From Selenomonas timonae (lineage in GTDB: Bacteria > Bacillota > Negativicutes > Selenomonadales > Selenomonadaceae): 64,000 nucleotides of DNA. The DNA is taken from positions 1,501,001 to 1,565,000 of the forward strand of contig NZ_CP060204.1 of NCBI RefSeq assembly GCF_014250475.1, in the 5' to 3' direction. The notes beneath the pieces were generated by a model. It was given only the letters and a program-made list of their open reading frames with translations, did not search any database and was not told the DNA's origin. Shown here one piece after another: positions 1 to 46,201 of this stretch. How positions within the stretch are numbered: the stretch's first letter is position 1; each line of letters starts with the position of its first letter. A program made the position numbers and the translations under genes.

Positions 1-698
1 ACTGCAACGGCGGCGACCACGGCTATCCCTTTGCAACGAACTTCAATCCCGAGATCAACATCCGCGAGGTCTCGGCAAAGGGCAGCTACTGGGAGAACGG
101 CGCGTGGGTCGAGACAGAGCCGATGGAGATCAAGCGCGTCTATGATTTTGCCGAGGTCGGGCAGAAGGACATGTATCTCCTGCACCACGAGGAACTCGAG
201 TCGCTCGCGAAAAACATCAAAGGCATCAAGCGCATCCGCTTCTTTATGACCTTCGGTGAGAGCTATCTCACGCATCTGCGCTGCTTGGAGAACGTCGGCA
301 TGACCTCCATCGAGCCGATCGACTTCGAGGGGCACAAGATCATCCCGCTGCAGTTCCTGAAGGCGGTGCTGCCCGACCCCGCGAGCCTCGGCTCGCGCAC
401 GAAGGGCAAGACGAACATCGGCTGCATCTTCCGTGGGAAGAAGGACGGGAAAGAAAAGAACTACTACCTCTACAATGTCTGCGACCATGAGGCGTGCTAC
501 GCCGAGGTCGGCTCGCAGGCGGTCGCCTACACGACGGGCGTGCCCGCGATGATTGGCGCGATGATGGTGATGACGGGAAAGTGGCGGCGTCCCGGCGTGT
601 TCAACGTCGAGGAGTTCGACCCCGATCCGTTCATGGACGCGCTGAACGTCTGGGGGCTGCCGTGGCAGGAGAGCCACAGCCCCGTATTGGTGGACTGA
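1..698 (+). CDS. Carboxynorspermidine synthase (saccharopine-dehydrogenase family), 5' end missing
   Basis: The reading frame is open from the window edge (first full codon at base 3), so only the C-terminal 231 or so residues are seen. The enzyme reductively condenses aspartate semialdehyde with a diamine to carboxynorspermidine or carboxyspermidine, using NADPH in the cytosol. The visible part has the family's substrate-domain look: an early CNGGDHGYPFATNFNPE stretch and the late YNVCDHEACYAEVGSQAVAYTTG region with the GVPAMIGAMM helix. The stop overlaps the start of the decarboxylase gene (TGATG, 696-700), so the two steps are translationally coupled. That partner makes this call more secure than plain saccharopine dehydrogenase. 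The exact diamine cannot be told from sequence. Confidence 0.88.
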   Translation, partial: CNGGDHGYPFATNFNPEINIREVSAKGSYWENGAWVETEPMEIKRVYDFAEVGQKDMYLLHHEELESLAKNIKGIKRIRFFMTFGESYLTHLRCLENVGMTSIEPIDFEGHKIIPLQFLKAVLPDPASLGSRTKGKTNIGCIFRGKKDGKEKNYYLYNVCDHEACYAEVGSQAVAYTTGVPAMIGAMMVMTGKWRRPGVFNVEEFDPDPFMDALNVWGLPWQESHSPVLVD

Positions 699-1837
699 TG
701 GCGGCGCGCGCGGCATGGCGGGCAGAGTGGGACGCTGTTCCGACGCCCTCCTACCTCGTCTATGAGGAGCTGCTCGAGCAAAATCTGAAGATACTCGCGG
801 AGATTGCAGAGGATACGGGTGCAAAGGTGCTCCTCGCACAGAAATGCTTCTCCATGTATCACTACTATCCGCTGATCGGGCGTTACCTCGCGGGAACGAC
901 GGCGAGCGGCATCTACGAGGCGCGGCTCTCGCAGGAGGAGATGGGGAAGGAAAACCACGTCTTCAAGCCCGCCTACGAGGCGGAGGAGATCGATCAGCTC
1001 GCGGCAATCTGCGACCACATCATCTTCAACTCATTCGCCCAGTGGGAGCGCTTCGGCGCGGCGGCGCGGGCGCAGGGCGCGTCCTGCGGCATCCGCATCA
1101 ACCCCGAGCGCTCGACGCAGGAGCACGCAATCTACGACCCGTGTGCGCCCGGCTCGCGCCTCGGCGTCAAGATCGCGGACTTCCGAGAGGACTTGCTCGA
1201 CGGACTCGATGGGCTGCACTTCCATACGCTCTGTGAGCAGGGGGCGGATGCGCTTGAGGCGACGCTTGCAGCCGTCGAGGAGAAGTTCGGGAAATATCTG
1301 TACGGGATGAAGTGGCTGAACTTTGGCGGCGGGCATCATATCACGCGCGAAGGATATGACATCGCTTTGTTGAAGAAGCTGATTCGCCATGTGCAGGAGA
1401 CCTATGACGTGGCGGTCTATCTCGAGCCGGGTGAGGCGATCGCGCTCAATGCGGGCTTCCTCGTCGCCGAGGTGCTCGAGGTGCAGACGGGCGGCAATGT
1501 GATCCTCAACACGTCCGCGACCTGCCACATGCCCGATGTTATCGAGATGCCGTACCGCCCGCCACTCATCGGCGCGGGCGAGGCGGGGGAGAAGGCGCAT
1601 ACCTATACGCTCGCGGGGCCGACCTGCCTTGCGGGCGATACGATCGGCACGTATTCCTTCGATGCGGAGCTGCGCGTTGGCGACCGCATTGTCTTCGGTG
1701 ATATGGCGATCTATACGATGGTGAAGAACAATACATTCAACGGCATGCCGCTGCCGAACATCATCGCCGTTTCGCCCCGTGGGGAATGGGAGATTGTGCG
1801 TGAATTCGGATATGAAGATTTTAAGATGAGACTTTGA
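698..1837 (+). CDS. nspC: Carboxynorspermidine decarboxylase
   Basis: PLP-dependent fold-III (alanine racemase-like) decarboxylase, 379 residues, that converts carboxyspermidine or carboxynorspermidine to the triamine. It is the last step of the AdoMet-independent polyamine route. The PLP lysine lies in LLAQKCFSMYHYYP near residue 45. The PLP-phosphate glycine patch is NFGGGHH, followed by YLEPGEAIALNAGF and the active-site cysteine in GPTCLAGD. The frame is open further upstream, but the ATG at 698 overlaps the synthase stop codon and gives the family length, so it is taken as the start. A hairpin and T-run follow directly, which suggests that this is the last gene of the operon. Confidence 0.93.
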   Translation: MAARAAWRAEWDAVPTPSYLVYEELLEQNLKILAEIAEDTGAKVLLAQKCFSMYHYYPLIGRYLAGTTASGIYEARLSQEEMGKENHVFKPAYEAEEIDQLAAICDHIIFNSFAQWERFGAAARAQGASCGIRINPERSTQEHAIYDPCAPGSRLGVKIADFREDLLDGLDGLHFHTLCEQGADALEATLAAVEEKFGKYLYGMKWLNFGGGHHITREGYDIALLKKLIRHVQETYDVAVYLEPGEAIALNAGFLVAEVLEVQTGGNVILNTSATCHMPDVIEMPYRPPLIGAGEAGEKAHTYTLAGPTCLAGDTIGTYSFDAELRVGDRIVFGDMAIYTMVKNNTFNGMPLPNIIAVSPRGEWEIVREFGYEDFKMRL

Positions 1838-3717: not shown

Positions 3718-4248
3718 ATGATGAAACTGTTTCAGAAACTCAAAGAGCCGCGCGTGCTCCTGCTCCTCGTCGTTGCAGCTGCCGCGTGCGGATTCGGCGG
3801 GCTCGCCATTCTCTCGCAGGTCAGTGCAAATCCTGCCTTCTGCGCAAGCTGTCACAATATGCAGCCGGAGTACGACAGCTATGCACAGGGGGATCTCCTT
3901 GCGAAGAAGCATGCTGATGCGGGCGTGACCTGTCATGACTGCCACGAGCCGACGCTGCTGCAGCAGATGAAGGAGGGCTGGCTCTTCGTTACAGGCAACT
4001 ATGAGAACCCCATGCCGAAGTACGGCTATACGAATGCGCAGTGTCTCTCCTGCCACAGCTTCGACGAGATCAAGCAGGCGACGGCGCATTATGGCAAGGA
4101 AAGCCCGCACGATCCCGTGCATCTCGCGGGCAACGAGAACCCGCAGAACTGCATGGACTGTCACAGCATGCACCATCCTCAGTCTGCAAAGAAGTGCACG
4201 GCATGCCACGGCGTGAGCTGGAAGCTGGATGCGAGCTGGGAAAAGTAG
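3718..4248 (+). CDS. Membrane-anchored pentaheme c-type cytochrome, NapC/NirT/NrfH-like
   Basis: 176-residue quinol-to-periplasm electron carrier. One N-terminal transmembrane anchor (about residues 12-33) is followed by five CxxCH heme sites: CASCH, CHDCH, CLSCH, CMDCH and CTACH. NrfH and the NapC core have four hemes, so a fifth in so short a protein is unusual. It starts ten bases after the flavoprotein stop with a GAGGGGGAG ribosome site, so the two genes form an operon. The simplest reading is that it takes electrons from menaquinol and passes them to the lipoprotein flavin subunit. ATG 3721 is an equally possible start. The frame is open upstream into the flavoprotein gene, but that extension lacks a ribosome site. 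Confidence 0.88.
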   Translation: MMKLFQKLKEPRVLLLLVVAAAACGFGGLAILSQVSANPAFCASCHNMQPEYDSYAQGDLLAKKHADAGVTCHDCHEPTLLQQMKEGWLFVTGNYENPMPKYGYTNAQCLSCHSFDEIKQATAHYGKESPHDPVHLAGNENPQNCMDCHSMHHPQSAKKCTACHGVSWKLDASWEK

Positions 4249-4319
4249 GCGGATTCTCGGGACTTTTTGCCGCAGAGGATAGCTAAATAAAAATAGTTAT
4301 TAAAAAGTATAAATTTCTG

Positions 4320-4348
4320 TTGACAAGGAAAATCTCCTGTGATATGAT
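4320..4348 (+). promoter_or_regulatory. Promoter of ahpC
   Basis: Perfect TTGACA (4320-4325), 17-base spacer, TATGAT (4343-4348). The AT-rich stretch 4283-4316 just upstream could hold a PerR/Fur-type site, but I see no clean TTATAAT-N-ATTATAA dyad. Confidence 0.8.
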
Positions 4349-4420
4349 AAAGCCACATTAAGGACATATGCAATCGTTCGATACGAGAGCGATTGGTTTA
4401 CTATCAAAGGAGGATATTCA

Positions 4421-39763: not shown

Positions 39764-41542
39764 TTATGTATTTACTTGTCGCCCCGCACCTGCGCCGTCG
39801 ATGGCGACGGCGACGCCGGTCTCGGTGAAGGTTTTCATCTCGTTTACGACGTGGAGGGCGGCGCGTACAATCTCTATGCCGAGGATGCCCGCGATGCCTG
39901 CGGTCAGCTCCGTGTCGATCATGAGCATATCTGGGAGGATGTGCAGGATGTAGGGACGTAGGGCGGCGTTCTCATCAGCGGCTGTGCGTGCTGCGCGATC
40001 CGTCCGTGCGTCTCCGGGCAGGATGAGGCTTGCGCCTGCCGCCGCTCCATGCAGAGCACCAGTGAGCGCCGCCGAAACAGCGGTGCTTTCCTCCCGTTCA
40101 TATGCACCGAGGATGAGGATGGGATAGGTGCGGGCGAGGGCATATGCTGTTTCGTATGCGGTGCGTGTGTCCTTTATGACCTGTGAGACGGTGAAAATAT
40201 GGACGGGGATGGATGCCGACGCCGTGAGTGTGTTGAGAATGTATGCCAGATCGGCGGGCAGTTCCCTGTCTGTGATGAGGAGGAGGGCTGCCTTTGTGTC
40301 TATGGGCGGGCGCTCCGTGCCGAGGATGCCTGCAAGCTGCACGGCGATCCGCTCGAGATAGCCGAGGCTGTGGATGGGCTTTGCGAGGTTGTCGAGGCGG
40401 TATTGACAGGCATCCATGGAGGCGTGCTGGGGGGGAGAGACTGGCAGGAGCGCCCCTTCCACCGCTGCGCGATTCCCCTCCCCCGTGTCGCACGGGGGAG
40501 GCATTGCATTATGCGAGGGTGCATCCACCGCTTCCCATATTTTCAGCATCCGTTCCAGCAGTCGCAGCGCAATCGAGGAGCCTGCCGCCTCGCTGAGGCG
40601 GATGTCGAGGCGGAGGATGGGCGTGAGTCCGAGGCGGCGGAGTGCGTGGGGATGGGAGTGCTCCGTCAGGGAGGCATGCGAGGCGAGCAGATAATGTGCA
40701 CAGTCGGGGGCGAGGGCGTGGGCGATGAGCGCAGCAGATGTCGTATTCGCTCCGTCGAGGATGACGAGCATGTGCCGCGCGGCAGCGCCGAGGATAATAC
40801 CCGCGATGCAGCCGAGTTCAAAGCCGCCGACCTTCGCGAGGACATCCAGTCCGTCATGCGGATCGGGACGATTGACACTGAGTGCGCGGCGGACAATCTC
40901 AATCTTGTGCGCGAGGCGCGCGTCCGAGATATTCGCACCCCGTCCCGTGACCTCCTCAGGTGTTAGTCCAAGGAATGCCGCAACGATGGCGGCGCTCGAA
41001 GTGGTATTCGATATGCCCATCTCGCCGGGGAGGATGCAGCGATCGCCGCGATCTGCGCAGTCGTTTGCGAGTACGATGCCCGTCTCAATGGCTGCAATCG
41101 CCTGTGCGCGCGTCATGGCAGAGCCCTTCGTCATATTCGCCGTGCCGCGTGCAATACTGTGTTGCAAGAGTCCCGGAATATCATCATAAGCGGCATTTAC
41201 ACCGAGATCGGCAACGACGAGGCGCGCCCCCGCATAGTTTGCGGCTGCATTCGCTGCGCCGCCGCGTGCAATGAGATAGTTGCACATCATATTCAGCGTG
41301 GTTTCGGGCGGATAGGCACTGACGCTCTCGGCGGCAACGCCGTGGTCGGCGCAGGAGATAATGACGCTCGTCTGCGGCGGTGCGGGATGGCGCTCGCCCG
41401 TGATGTTCATATAGCGAAGGAGGATGGAGCGCAGATGTCCGAAATCTGTGCTTGTCTGTGCGGACAGCGCAGCGTCGACTGCCGAGGAAAGCTCCGTGTC
41501 GGGGACATGGATTGCCACTACCGTTTGTTCAAGAAGATTCAT
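39764..41542 (-). CDS. cobT: Nicotinate-nucleotide--dimethylbenzimidazole phosphoribosyltransferase with second degenerate domain
   Basis: 592 residues, against about 350 in ordinary CobT. Residues 1-340 form an active-looking CobT: ISCADHGVAAESVSAYPPE, GEMGISNTTSSAAI, VGGFELGCIAGIILGAA and DIRLSEAAG with the catalytic Glu. It makes alpha-ribazole phosphate for the lower ligand of cobamides. Residues about 375-592 look like a second, degenerate CobT: LDNLAKPIHSLGYLERIA at its start and EMKTFTETGV at its end, without the middle catalytic motifs. The linker (about 342-365) is encoded by a palindromic repeat. Its start overlaps the tex stop (ATGA), so the two are cotranslated. Confidence 0.88.
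   Translation of the reverse strand: MNLLEQTVVAIHVPDTELSSAVDAALSAQTSTDFGHLRSILLRYMNITGERHPAPPQTSVIISCADHGVAAESVSAYPPETTLNMMCNYLIARGGAANAAANYAGARLVVADLGVNAAYDDIPGLLQHSIARGTANMTKGSAMTRAQAIAAIETGIVLANDCADRGDRCILPGEMGISNTTSSAAIVAAFLGLTPEEVTGRGANISDARLAHKIEIVRRALSVNRPDPHDGLDVLAKVGGFELGCIAGIILGAAARHMLVILDGANTTSAALIAHALAPDCAHYLLASHASLTEHSHPHALRRLGLTPILRLDIRLSEAAGSSIALRLLERMLKIWEAVDAPSHNAMPPPCDTGEGNRAAVEGALLPVSPPQHASMDACQYRLDNLAKPIHSLGYLERIAVQLAGILGTERPPIDTKAALLLITDRELPADLAYILNTLTASASIPVHIFTVSQVIKDTRTAYETAYALARTYPILILGAYEREESTAVSAALTGALHGAAAGASLILPGDARTDRAARTAADENAALRPYILHILPDMLMIDTELTAGIAGILGIEIVRAALHVVNEMKTFTETGVAVAIDGAGAGRQVNT
40449..40517. repeat. Palindromic repeat, copy 2, inside the cobT reading frame
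   Basis: The minus strand matches the 3' two thirds of the intergenic repeat at 23876-23945, including the CCTCCCCCGT-GCGACA-CGGGGGAGG hairpin and GGTGGAAGGGGCGCT. It keeps the cobT frame and encodes HNAMPPPCDTGEGNRAAVEG. Confidence 0.82.
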
Positions 41543-43916: not shown

Positions 43917-44369
43917 ATGCGAGAACAGATGATGCTGACATTGAATGAGGTCACGGATATTCTGCGGCAGAACAAGAAAAAGGTGACGCCGCAGCGCCTT
44001 GCCGTCTATGCGGCTCTTGCTGCGACGGAGGAGCATCCGACGGCGGAAGCTCTCTATAAGGAGCTGCGTCCGAACTATCCGACGATGAGTCTTGCCACGG
44101 TCTACAAGTCACTTGATGCGTTCTGTGAGATCGGCATCGTGCGTGAGCTGAACGTGGGCGAGGAGGCATTTCGCTATGACGCAGATATCTCCGCGCATCC
44201 GCATGTGCGTTGCATTGCGTGCGACAAGGTTGCGGACGTGCCCATTGCATCGCTCCCGTCTCTCGACAAGAATGTTGCGTCTGTGACGGGGTATCGCATT
44301 GTCTCGCAGCAGATGTATTTCTTCGGCTACTGCCCGCAGTGCCAAGAGGCCAATGCGGTAAAAAATTAA
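43917..44369 (+). CDS. perR: Fur-family regulator, PerR-like
   Basis: 150 residues. The N-terminal winged helix is LRQNKKKVTPQRLAVYAALAATEEHPTAEALY with PTMSLATVYKSLDAF. The metal-sensing part has HPHVRCIACDKVADV and the second zinc pair CPQC, giving a CxxC/CxxC structural zinc site. DKVADV places Asp where B. subtilis PerR has its peroxide-sensing Asp, and VTGYRI followed by the YFFGYCPQC end also favours PerR over Fur or Zur. It probably controls ahpC and rubrerythrin. It is monocistronic between a promoter and a terminator. Confidence 0.82.
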   Translation: MREQMMLTLNEVTDILRQNKKKVTPQRLAVYAALAATEEHPTAEALYKELRPNYPTMSLATVYKSLDAFCEIGIVRELNVGEEAFRYDADISAHPHVRCIACDKVADVPIASLPSLDKNVASVTGYRIVSQQMYFFGYCPQCQEANAVKN

Positions 44370-44395: not shown

Positions 44396-44438
44396 AAAAA
44401 AGTGACATGCACCGCGCGTTCGGTACATGTCACTTTTC
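44396..44438. terminator. Bidirectional terminator between perR and the AdoMetDC-like gene
   Basis: AAAAGTGACATG pairs with CATGTCACTTTT, extended by ACCG/CGGT inside. A-run and T-run on opposite sides serve both convergent genes. Confidence 0.88.
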
Positions 44439-44448
44439 ATGTGTTCTG

Positions 44449-44907
44449 TTATCCGCGGTTTCTCCGTGCGAGTATGCGGATGACCTTCGCGCCCGTGCTC
44501 TTGATCTTGCGGATGGGCGCGACGCGTGTCGTGGTCTTGGGACGAATCTCTCCGGGAGAGCGGAAATCGCCGCGTCGCAGGTGCGTCGTCTTGGTTTTCT
44601 CGGGTTGGAACACCCTGCGCATCGTACGTGCAATCGGGTCGAGTGCGGCGTCCTCCGTGCAGAGGTAGATATCGAGTGAGACGTGGCGGAGTTCGGGATG
44701 GACATGCAGCGCGAGATGCCCGTCGGGCAGAAGTGCCATCAGGGAGAGGTGACCGCTCTCCTGCACGTCGCTGATGATCTGCAGGGGGACGAGATCAAGG
44801 GTTCTGAGTGCTTCGGAGACCTTGGCGCGCAGCGCCTCTTCACTCGTATATTTTTCACCTTTGCAATTATAAAAATCCACTGTCAGCAATCTTGATTGAA
44901 TGTCCAT
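44449..44907 (-). CDS. S-adenosylmethionine decarboxylase-like protein lacking the pyruvoyl serine
   Basis: 152 residues. Residues 5-85 align by eye with the prokaryotic AdoMetDC alpha/beta fold: RLLTVDFYNCKG at the start and HLALHVHPELRHVSLDIYLC. The proton-donor His68 and Cys83 match the T. maritima enzyme, but the residue aligned with Ser63, which becomes the pyruvoyl group after self-cleavage, is Gly63 (LLPDGHLALH). Without it neither processing nor decarboxylation is expected. A basic tail of about 50 residues (RRGDFRSPGEIRPKTTTR onward) is an addition. It may be a regulatory or RNA-binding relic. The host makes spermidine by a route that does not need AdoMetDC. Confidence 0.68.
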   Translation of the reverse strand: MDIQSRLLTVDFYNCKGEKYTSEEALRAKVSEALRTLDLVPLQIISDVQESGHLSLMALLPDGHLALHVHPELRHVSLDIYLCTEDAALDPIARTMRRVFQPEKTKTTHLRRGDFRSPGEIRPKTTTRVAPIRKIKSTGAKVIRILARRNRG

Positions 44908-45166
44908 TCGATTCAGTCTCCTTTACAGTGCTCAGTCTTAGTTTCATTATAGAGGAAAGAGACGCCGCCGTCAAGGAATATAGTCATATCGTCCTAAACA
45001 GAATAAAAAGAATCCAGAAGAGAATTACATGCTGTTGTTTTCGCTATAAAATCTCATGGAAAAATAAACGCGCTTATGCTATACTGATTCTGCACATTTC
45101 AAGGACTGTGCATATGGAATTATAGAACGTATACATCTCAGGTGATGGAAGGAGACTCCACTTACA

Positions 45167-46201
45167 ATGTTTGGTCTTTTTGGCGGACACGATATGGGGA
45201 TTGACCTCGGTACGGCGAATACACTGGTGCATGTGAAGGGGCGTGGCATTGTCCTGCGCGAGCCGTCCGTTGTTGCAATAAAGAGTGATTCGGGCGATGT
45301 GCTCGCGGTGGGTGAGGAAGCCAAGCAGATGATCGGGCGCACGCCCGGCAATATCGTTGCGATTCGTCCGATGAAGGACGGCGTTATTGCGGATTTTGAT
45401 GTGACGCAGGCGATGCTGAAATACTTCATCCGCAAGGCAATGCGCTCGAAGTCGTTTGTACGTCCGCGCGTCGTGGTCGGCGTTCCGTCGGGTGTGACGG
45501 AGGTCGAAAAGCGTGCGGTTATCGATGCGGCACAGCAGGCAGGTGCGCGTGAGGCATATCTGATCGAAGAGCCGATGGCGGCTGCGATCGGTGCGGGGCT
45601 TCCAGTGGAGGAGGCGACGGGCAGCATGGTCGTCGACATTGGCGGCGGCACGACGGAGATTGCCGTCATCTCGCTCGGCGGCATCGTAACGAGCAGGTCC
45701 ATCCGCATCGGCGGCGATGAGATGGACTCTGCCATCGTGCAGTACATCAAGCGTATGTATAACCTCATGATCGGTGAGCGCACGGCGGAGGAAATCAAGA
45801 TCACGGTCGGAACGGCGATTGTGACGCCGGATACGGATCGTACAATGGACATCCGCGGCCGTGACCTCGTAAGCGGTCTGCCGAAGACGCTGACGATCCA
45901 TGCGAAGGAAATTCGCGAGGCGCTGAACGAGCCGATCTACAAGATCATCGACGCCGTGAAGGGCACACTCGAGAAGACACCGCCGGAACTCGCGGCGGAT
46001 GTTATGGATCACGGCATTATGATGACGGGCGGCGGCGCGCTTCTCATGAATCTGGACAAGCTCCTCTCTCATGAGACAGGCATGCCTGTGCTCGTGTCCG
46101 AGGATGCACTCTCCTGTGTTGGTGAGGGGACAGGGCGTACGCTTGAGAACATCGGGCTCCTCAAGAGTGTCGTTATGTCCTCGAAGAAATTGAAGCAATG
46201 A
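45167..46201 (+). CDS. mreB: Rod shape-determining actin homologue MreB
   Basis: 344 residues. Actin-fold motifs: phosphate 1 [15 protein letters not shown], phosphate 2 [14 protein letters not shown], and adenosine [12 protein letters not shown]. It polymerizes under the inner membrane and organizes side-wall synthesis. A candidate -10 TATACT (45080-45085) precedes it with a weak -35. The AGGAGAC site is close. First gene of the shape/division operon; the stop overlaps mreC. Confidence 0.98.

Follow-up and report, generated by a model that had tools for sequence, protein, structure and literature searches.

What work is left for a homolog of AdoMet decarboxylase (AdoMetDC) that lacks the serine from which the pyruvoyl group is formed? 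The question is raised by a 152-residue open reading frame in a stretch of 64,000 nucleotides from Selenomonas timonae (the window), whose parts are as follows.

44449..44907, minus strand: coding sequence of the tailed AdoMetDC-fold protein, 152 residues, stop codon included (open reading frame, PF02675, orthologue profile matches)
44569..44907, minus strand: AdoMetDC class 1b domain, residues 1-113 (PF02675, T. maritima SpeD alignment, predicted model)
44719..44721, minus strand: Gly63 codon, at the site of the pyruvoyl-forming Ser63 (T. maritima SpeD alignment; Gly in 88 of 115 orthologues)
44452..44568, minus strand: basic C-terminal tail, residues 114-152, confined to the class in our samples (a strand predicted at 124-131 and a helix at 138-149)

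An AdoMetDC without Ser63 does not cleave itself and so forms no pyruvoyl group, and decarboxylation by the known mechanism is thereby excluded. The residues S63, H68, and C83 of the T. maritima enzyme are described as essential to self-processing (PMC10407285).

The sole Pfam match of the 152-residue protein is PF02675 (AdoMet_dc), which covers residues 8-113 with 63.3 bits (cut-off 25); against the AdoMetDC equivalog TIGR03330 it scores 52.1 bits, under the cut-off of 75.65. Among solved structures, it is closest in sequence to three entries for T. maritima SpeD (1tlu, 1tmi, 1vr7), all of them weak matches (E 0.002-0.0025). Because the alignment is ungapped between the cleavage site and Cys83, the numbering of the two proteins is identical there: E62-S63-H64 of T. 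maritima corresponds to D62-G63-H64 in the window protein, and His68 and Cys83 match, as the initial annotation had noted. An AlphaFold2 model calculated from 68 aligned rows (mean pLDDT 85) resembles T. maritima SpeD with a Z score of ~15 and an rmsd of 2.4 over 115 residues, and the AdoMetDC fold of the Gly63 protein is thus predicted to be intact. The reading frame stands alone, with no aminopropyltransferase fused to it. The Pfam match, the alignment, and Gly63 together bear out the initial view of the protein as an AdoMetDC homolog that lacks its self-cleavage serine.

The gene is not peculiar to this genome. Using a family profile, we found an orthologue in 115 of 120 genomes (the window's own and 119 relatives) and in 96 of the 98 of good quality; 113 of the 115 match in one frame through the tail, reaching position 147 or beyond of 152, and the 115 include one orthologue with a frame change (G004) and one cut by a contig end (G023). 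The profile is unmatched in the remaining five genomes (G072, G086, G090, G097, G103); as G086 is listed as 100% complete, the protein is not indispensable. A collection of named genomes yielded 90 relatives, of which 80 were kept; Selenomonadales and Sporomusaceae are confirmed among them, three are labelled just "Bacillota bacterium", and the others bear names of Negativicutes taxa. The tailed AdoMetDC-fold protein spans the class Negativicutes, and the tail is specific to the class in the samples searched. Two loci deserve separate mention. The same-genus orthologue L036 (G004, about 3778-4362) is split over two frames near the junction of domain and tail, by either a true break or a sequencing error, and L056 (G024:C57:6215-6346) is an additional, incomplete hit to the tail region (profile positions 88-131) beside the full gene, at a contig end. 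A further partial homolog in G109 (L241) was left out of the analysis.

When the orthologues were aligned, as the initial annotation had proposed, Gly proved to be the usual residue at position 63 (88 of 115), followed by Ser (19), Ala (3), Thr (2), and Cys, Phe, and His (one each). Another serine at the cleavage position, with 51 and 55 named beforehand, was the result that was to count against a lost cleavage site, and neither position holds a conserved one: the equivalent of Ser55 in the window protein is Ser in 20 of the 88 Gly63 orthologues, and among 108 unique Gly63 sequences, 19 have Ser at position 51. The latter count, like the identities given below, was taken from the 139 unique tailed proteins left after duplicate removal, with the frame-broken L036 included. 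The rest of the site is unevenly kept. His64 is present in 86 of the 88 Gly63 proteins, His68 and Cys83 in 81 each, and both of the latter in 76; D11, D79, and R112 are invariant in all 115 orthologues, and P123 is found in 114. Positions F49, S55, and E72, presumably substrate contacts of AdoMetDC, are degraded in the Gly63 proteins, with Phe, Ser, and Glu retained in 14, 20, and 29 of 88, respectively. All 14 of the tail-less SpeD rows compared keep F49, S63, H68, E72, and C83.

Among the 19 Ser63 members, 13 have S63, H68, and C83 together, and eight of the nine that were scored pass the AdoMetDC equivalog cut-off (L080 fails), so that part of the tailed family may still be enzymatic. These orthologues (for example L004, L012, and L103 of Anaerospora hongkongensis) are similar in length to the window protein, carry the same tail, and belong with it to one family on the domain tree described below; they differ from it by Ser63, and most have H68 and C83 as well, while eight of the nine scored lie over the AdoMetDC cut-off. 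The predicted model of L012 (pLDDT 88) matches T. maritima SpeD with a Z score of ~21 and an rmsd of 1.2 over 115 residues, and its tail likewise shows a strand and a terminal helix, placed as in the model of the window protein.

Residues 104-152 are strongly basic, and the portion missing from ordinary SpeD amounts to 39 residues, following Arg112-Gly113. The mean net charge of the tail is +8 (range 4 to 12). It is the least confident part of the AlphaFold2 model (block means 60-78), where residues 124-131 form a strand and residues 138-149 the C-terminal helix; the helix is at most modestly amphipathic, with a mean moment of 0.43 versus 0.28 for shuffled sequences but p < 0.05 in just 7 of 114 sequences. 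No Pfam family matches the tail, and no similar sequence occurs elsewhere in the organism's own genome up to E = 10. When the tail alone was used to query a sample of 398 genomes of the phylum, 14 class members matched, along with three short marginal matches. In a 299-genome sample of the phylum, the matches listed from other classes are confined to the domain and go no further than residue 126; the exceptions are four rows that run past a stop codon, and in two of these (L197 and L201) the open frame closes after 124 and 127 residues, without the tail. It is to these listed matches and to the tail-only search of the 398 genomes that the absence of the tail outside the class refers. The initial annotation described the basic tail as an addition to a protein that had lost its serine. 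The tail is indeed conserved in the orthologues, but it was not added to a dead enzyme: Ser63 members are also tailed, and the tail therefore probably predates the loss of the serine.

Selection on the tail is evident within the genus. In 13 intact same-genus sequences (78 pairs; L036 was excluded), median dN/dS comes to 0.12 in residues 1-103, 0.05 in residues 54-84, and 0.039 in residues 104-152, with 77, 67, and 68 pairs usable for the respective regions. As synonymous divergence is alike in the three parts (0.61, 0.63, and 0.58), it is as a protein that the tail is conserved, and it is under stronger purifying selection than residues 1-103. Mean pairwise identity across 61 representatives is 0.29 for residues 1-53, 0.42 for 54-84, 0.33 for 85-103, and 0.55 for 104-148 (0.53-0.55 for the tail). 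The presence of an orthologue in 115 of 120 genomes, with dN/dS far below 1, indicates that the Gly63 gene is more than a product of chance.

We examined the serine loss on a tree of the domain only, computed by a quick search from 72%-identity representatives (75 rows, 112 columns, residue 63 omitted) and containing many open forks. The 61 tailed rows fall together (SH-aLRT 87), opposite 13 tail-less SpeD rows and L003, a tail-less SpeD of the class itself. Near the base, Ser63 rows alternate with Gly63 rows in open forks, and the tree requires no fewer than four changes between Ser and non-Ser at position 63. Most simply, the ancestral protein was a tailed, probably working AdoMetDC of the Negativicutes, and the serine would have been lost later, perhaps more than once.

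Is there a polyamine pathway in which such a protein could be idle? The initial annotation held that the organism uses the carboxynorspermidine route, encoded at window positions 1-1837, and so has no use for an AdoMetDC. We found NspC at 494-1837 (459 bits, cut-off 409), but carboxynorspermidine synthase is recognizable only in part: the open reading frame at 123-698 matches positions 224-399 of its 405 with 188.9 bits, under the whole-protein cut-off of 800. The second half of the claim fails, as the same genome encodes a full-length class 1a SpeD (TIGR03331, 414 bits, cut-off 255.8) and a SpeE homolog (PF01564, 213 bits).

G000:C1:1804884-1805663 and 1838521-1839063: class 1a SpeD and SpeE, the second route in the organism's own genome

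The genome appears to hold two spermidine-type routes, one comprising carboxynorspermidine synthase (in part) and NspC, the other class 1a SpeD and SpeE.

Across the 120 genomes, class 1a SpeD was found in 96, NspC in 84, and SpeE in 107, at E-value limits of 1e-20 for class 1a SpeD and SpeE and 1e-50 for NspC, at which weaker polyamine homologs would be missed. All three are found in 61 of the 88 Gly63 genomes. Class 1a SpeD is present in 68 of the 88 and missing from 20, and completeness is 94% or more in 15 of these 20. All three genes are missing from ten Gly63 genomes, of which six reach 94% completeness or better (G016, G023, G026, G037, G053, G116) and four lie at 63-84% (G038, G057, G069, G073); the Gly63 protein is therefore kept without these three spermidine-synthesis genes. 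The 19 Ser63 genomes all have SpeE, and 17 have class 1a SpeD; the two without it, G074 and G094, have a second, tail-less class 1b homolog, partial in G094. With either class 1a SpeD or this second homolog present, the tailed protein is never the sole AdoMetDC candidate in a Ser63 genome. In nine genomes (G021, G028, G044, G049, G054, G064, G070, G101, G110), NspC and a SpeE homolog lie on the same contig a few kb apart; class 1a SpeD is missing from all nine, PF02675 matches just the Gly63 protein in each, and SpeE has no evident source of its aminopropyl donor.

The surroundings of the gene in the window include the following features.

44946..44974, minus strand: candidate promoter, TTGACG-17-TATAAT (consensus match alone, 11 of 12; ~40 bases upstream of the start codon)
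44396..44444, strand not assigned: strong hairpin with T runs, between perR and the tailed-protein gene (folding energy)
43917..44369, plus strand: perR, the peroxide regulator, convergent neighbor (NF052545, 193.3 bits, cut-off 180)
45167..46201, plus strand: mreB, divergent neighbor, followed in the window by mreC, mreD, and pbp2 (NF010539, 544.5 bits)

Promoter-like sites of such quality number seven in the region versus 1.5 expected. The hairpin has a folding energy of -27.6 kcal/mol (z -7.2) on the minus strand and -21.0 kcal/mol (z -4.4) on the plus strand; it is not listed in the terminator pattern scan, and probably acts as a two-way terminator for the convergent perR and tailed-protein genes. 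In 13 other loci of the same genus, mreB adjoins the gene in 12, perR in 10, and both in nine, while at loci of other genera neither was seen within the flanks available, some of which are short. Elsewhere the most frequent neighbors, counted over 171 loci in which some organisms appear twice, are Lgt (47), a FabK-like protein (44) and a flavorubredoxin-like protein (28), both under the equivalog cut-off, CtsR (22), an McsA-like protein (19, under cut-off), an ATP:guanido phosphotransferase that is presumably McsB (18), and rubrerythrin (12). No polyamine genes occur among the 13 neighbor clusters that were annotated, the larger ones. The natural reading is a single-gene unit that has moved about. 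Gene neighborhood was also considered as a guide to function, but none emerges from it; outside the genus the neighbors are different ones. PADLOC found nothing, nor did Rfam in the window at gathering cut-offs. Elsewhere in the window, a CobT-type protein of 592 residues (39764-41542, minus strand) matches CobT to near residue 337, with ~250 C-terminal residues beyond.

Several known systems resemble this protein in part. Class 1b AdoMetDC, as represented by SpeD of T. maritima and B. subtilis, shares its fold, His68, Cys83, Asp79, and Arg112-Gly113, and the S63A form of the T. maritima enzyme (1tmi) is a solved structure without the same serine; the window protein differs from class 1b SpeD in Gly63, a TIGR03330 score under the cut-off, the basic tail, and annotated neighbors unrelated to polyamines. 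The N-domain of human spermine synthase is described as an inactive AdoMetDC fold with a non-catalytic purpose (PMC5201418), and the window model matches the spermine synthase structure 3c6k with a Z score of 11.6; that domain is fused to an aminopropyltransferase, whereas the window protein is stand-alone and has a basic tail. Bacteria are known to have put the SpeD fold to other uses: SpeD gave rise to the arginine decarboxylase SpeDA and the ornithine decarboxylase SpeDC, and in a SpeD fusion of Victivallis vadensis the second domain is dead (PMC10407285). SpeDA and SpeDC are pyruvoyl enzymes, unlike the window protein, which lacks the pyruvoyl-forming serine, and in V. vadensis the dead domain has a live one attached, whereas the window protein stands alone. 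A stand-alone, class-wide bacterial AdoMetDC pseudoenzyme with a conserved tail was not found in the open-licence literature searched. The Veillonella parvula gene Vpar_0438, annotated as an AdoMetDC proenzyme, is reported to be 18-fold down in coaggregates with S. gordonii (PMC6529473); it may correspond to the tailed or to the class 1a protein.

The shape of the enzyme is kept, its working residue is lost, and a basic tail is found in nearly all relatives examined, so a new job for the protein is probable; the initial suggestion that the fold had been put to another use is supported to that extent. What the job might be can be narrowed by weighing the candidates against the counts given above. 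One idea, already raised in the initial annotation as a polyamine or AdoMet sensor, is that a diamine, AdoMet, or its decarboxylated form would occupy the old site and so change what is held by the basic tail. The fold belongs to an enzyme that binds AdoMet, and the retention of His64 (86 of 88), His68, and Cys83 (81 of 88 each) suits such a site, but the presumed substrate contacts are degraded, polyamine genes are absent from the annotated neighbor clusters, and the protein is retained in genomes lacking class 1a SpeD, NspC, and SpeE, where diamines or uptake might nevertheless play a part; we regard a sensor as unlikely. The same three residues, present in most Gly63 proteins, could instead serve catalysis in the pocket that needs no pyruvoyl group. 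This is quite improbable, since His68 and Cys83 are each replaced in seven of the 88 Gly63 proteins, and we know of no pyruvoyl-free chemistry of the AdoMetDC fold. Decay of an old speD gene into a jobless leftover would fit the several residues that occur at position 63 and the same-genus copy split between two frames (L036 in G004), yet it is scarcely credible, as selection argues strongly against it: dN/dS is 0.04-0.12, the gene occurs in 96 of the 98 good-quality genomes, and its tail has been conserved.

A partnership with the cell's real AdoMetDC has a solid precedent in the trypanosome AdoMetDC prozyme, described as a catalytically dead paralogue that works by heterodimerizing with AdoMetDC (PMC5201418). 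The window protein resembles the prozyme as an AdoMetDC paralogue that, by its sequence, lacks the cleavage serine, and class 1a SpeD, the enzyme that it would bind and activate, is encoded in its own genome and in 68 of the 88 Gly63 genomes. Yet class 1a SpeD belongs to another subclass and is distantly related, and its absence from 20 Gly63 genomes, 15 of them at least 94% complete, sets these apart from the trypanosome case, argues against a SpeD partner as the general role, and leaves a prozyme-like activator with poor odds. A last proposal turns to the cell envelope. Negativicutes are reported to attach cadaverine or putrescine to peptidoglycan, by which OmpM holds the outer membrane (PMC10628300), and a non-enzymatic protein of this envelope programme, which sets the class apart, might hold or display diamines or control how they are attached, its tail docking on the wall-synthesis machinery. 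Its distribution is that of the class, and in its own genus the gene adjoins mreBCD and pbp2; against this, that neighborhood is not seen at loci of other genera. With nothing to link the two beyond a shared distribution and the gene order of one genus, we rate this proposal very low.

Our preferred reading, to which we tentatively assign a probability of roughly 0.45, is a pseudoenzyme of the AdoMetDC fold that is conserved for the sake of this fold and of the tail, with the tails binding an acidic partner. The AdoMetDC domain would form the usual face-to-face sheet dimer and so present two basic tails; dimerization of the bacterial AdoMetDC half-sandwich is described in PMC5201418. The two tails would then bind the acidic partner, which might be RNA, the ribosome, DNA, an anionic membrane surface, or a protein, while the leftover pocket (His64, His68, and Cys83) may serve a small ligand or have no more than a packing role. 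The ancestor would have been a working, tailed AdoMetDC of the Negativicutes, most of whose descendants would have lost catalysis; we propose that the enzymatic function could go in them because the binding job lay in the fold and the tail. In favor of a pseudoenzyme, Ser63 is mostly lost, the tail is conserved and charged, genomes without the three spermidine-synthesis genes retain the protein, and the fold is modeled as intact. Against a pure scaffold, both His68 and Cys83 are present in 76 of the 88 Gly63 proteins, more than a scaffold would need. The possibly enzymatic Ser63 members, the five genomes without the protein, the low model confidence of the tail, and the weak amphipathicity of its helix also count against this reading.

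Genes of this kind may be annotated as AdoMetDC and so mislead predictions of polyamine pathways in these bacteria. The passage from Ser63 to Gly63 members may also offer a natural series in which an enzyme loses catalysis while a second job maintains selection.
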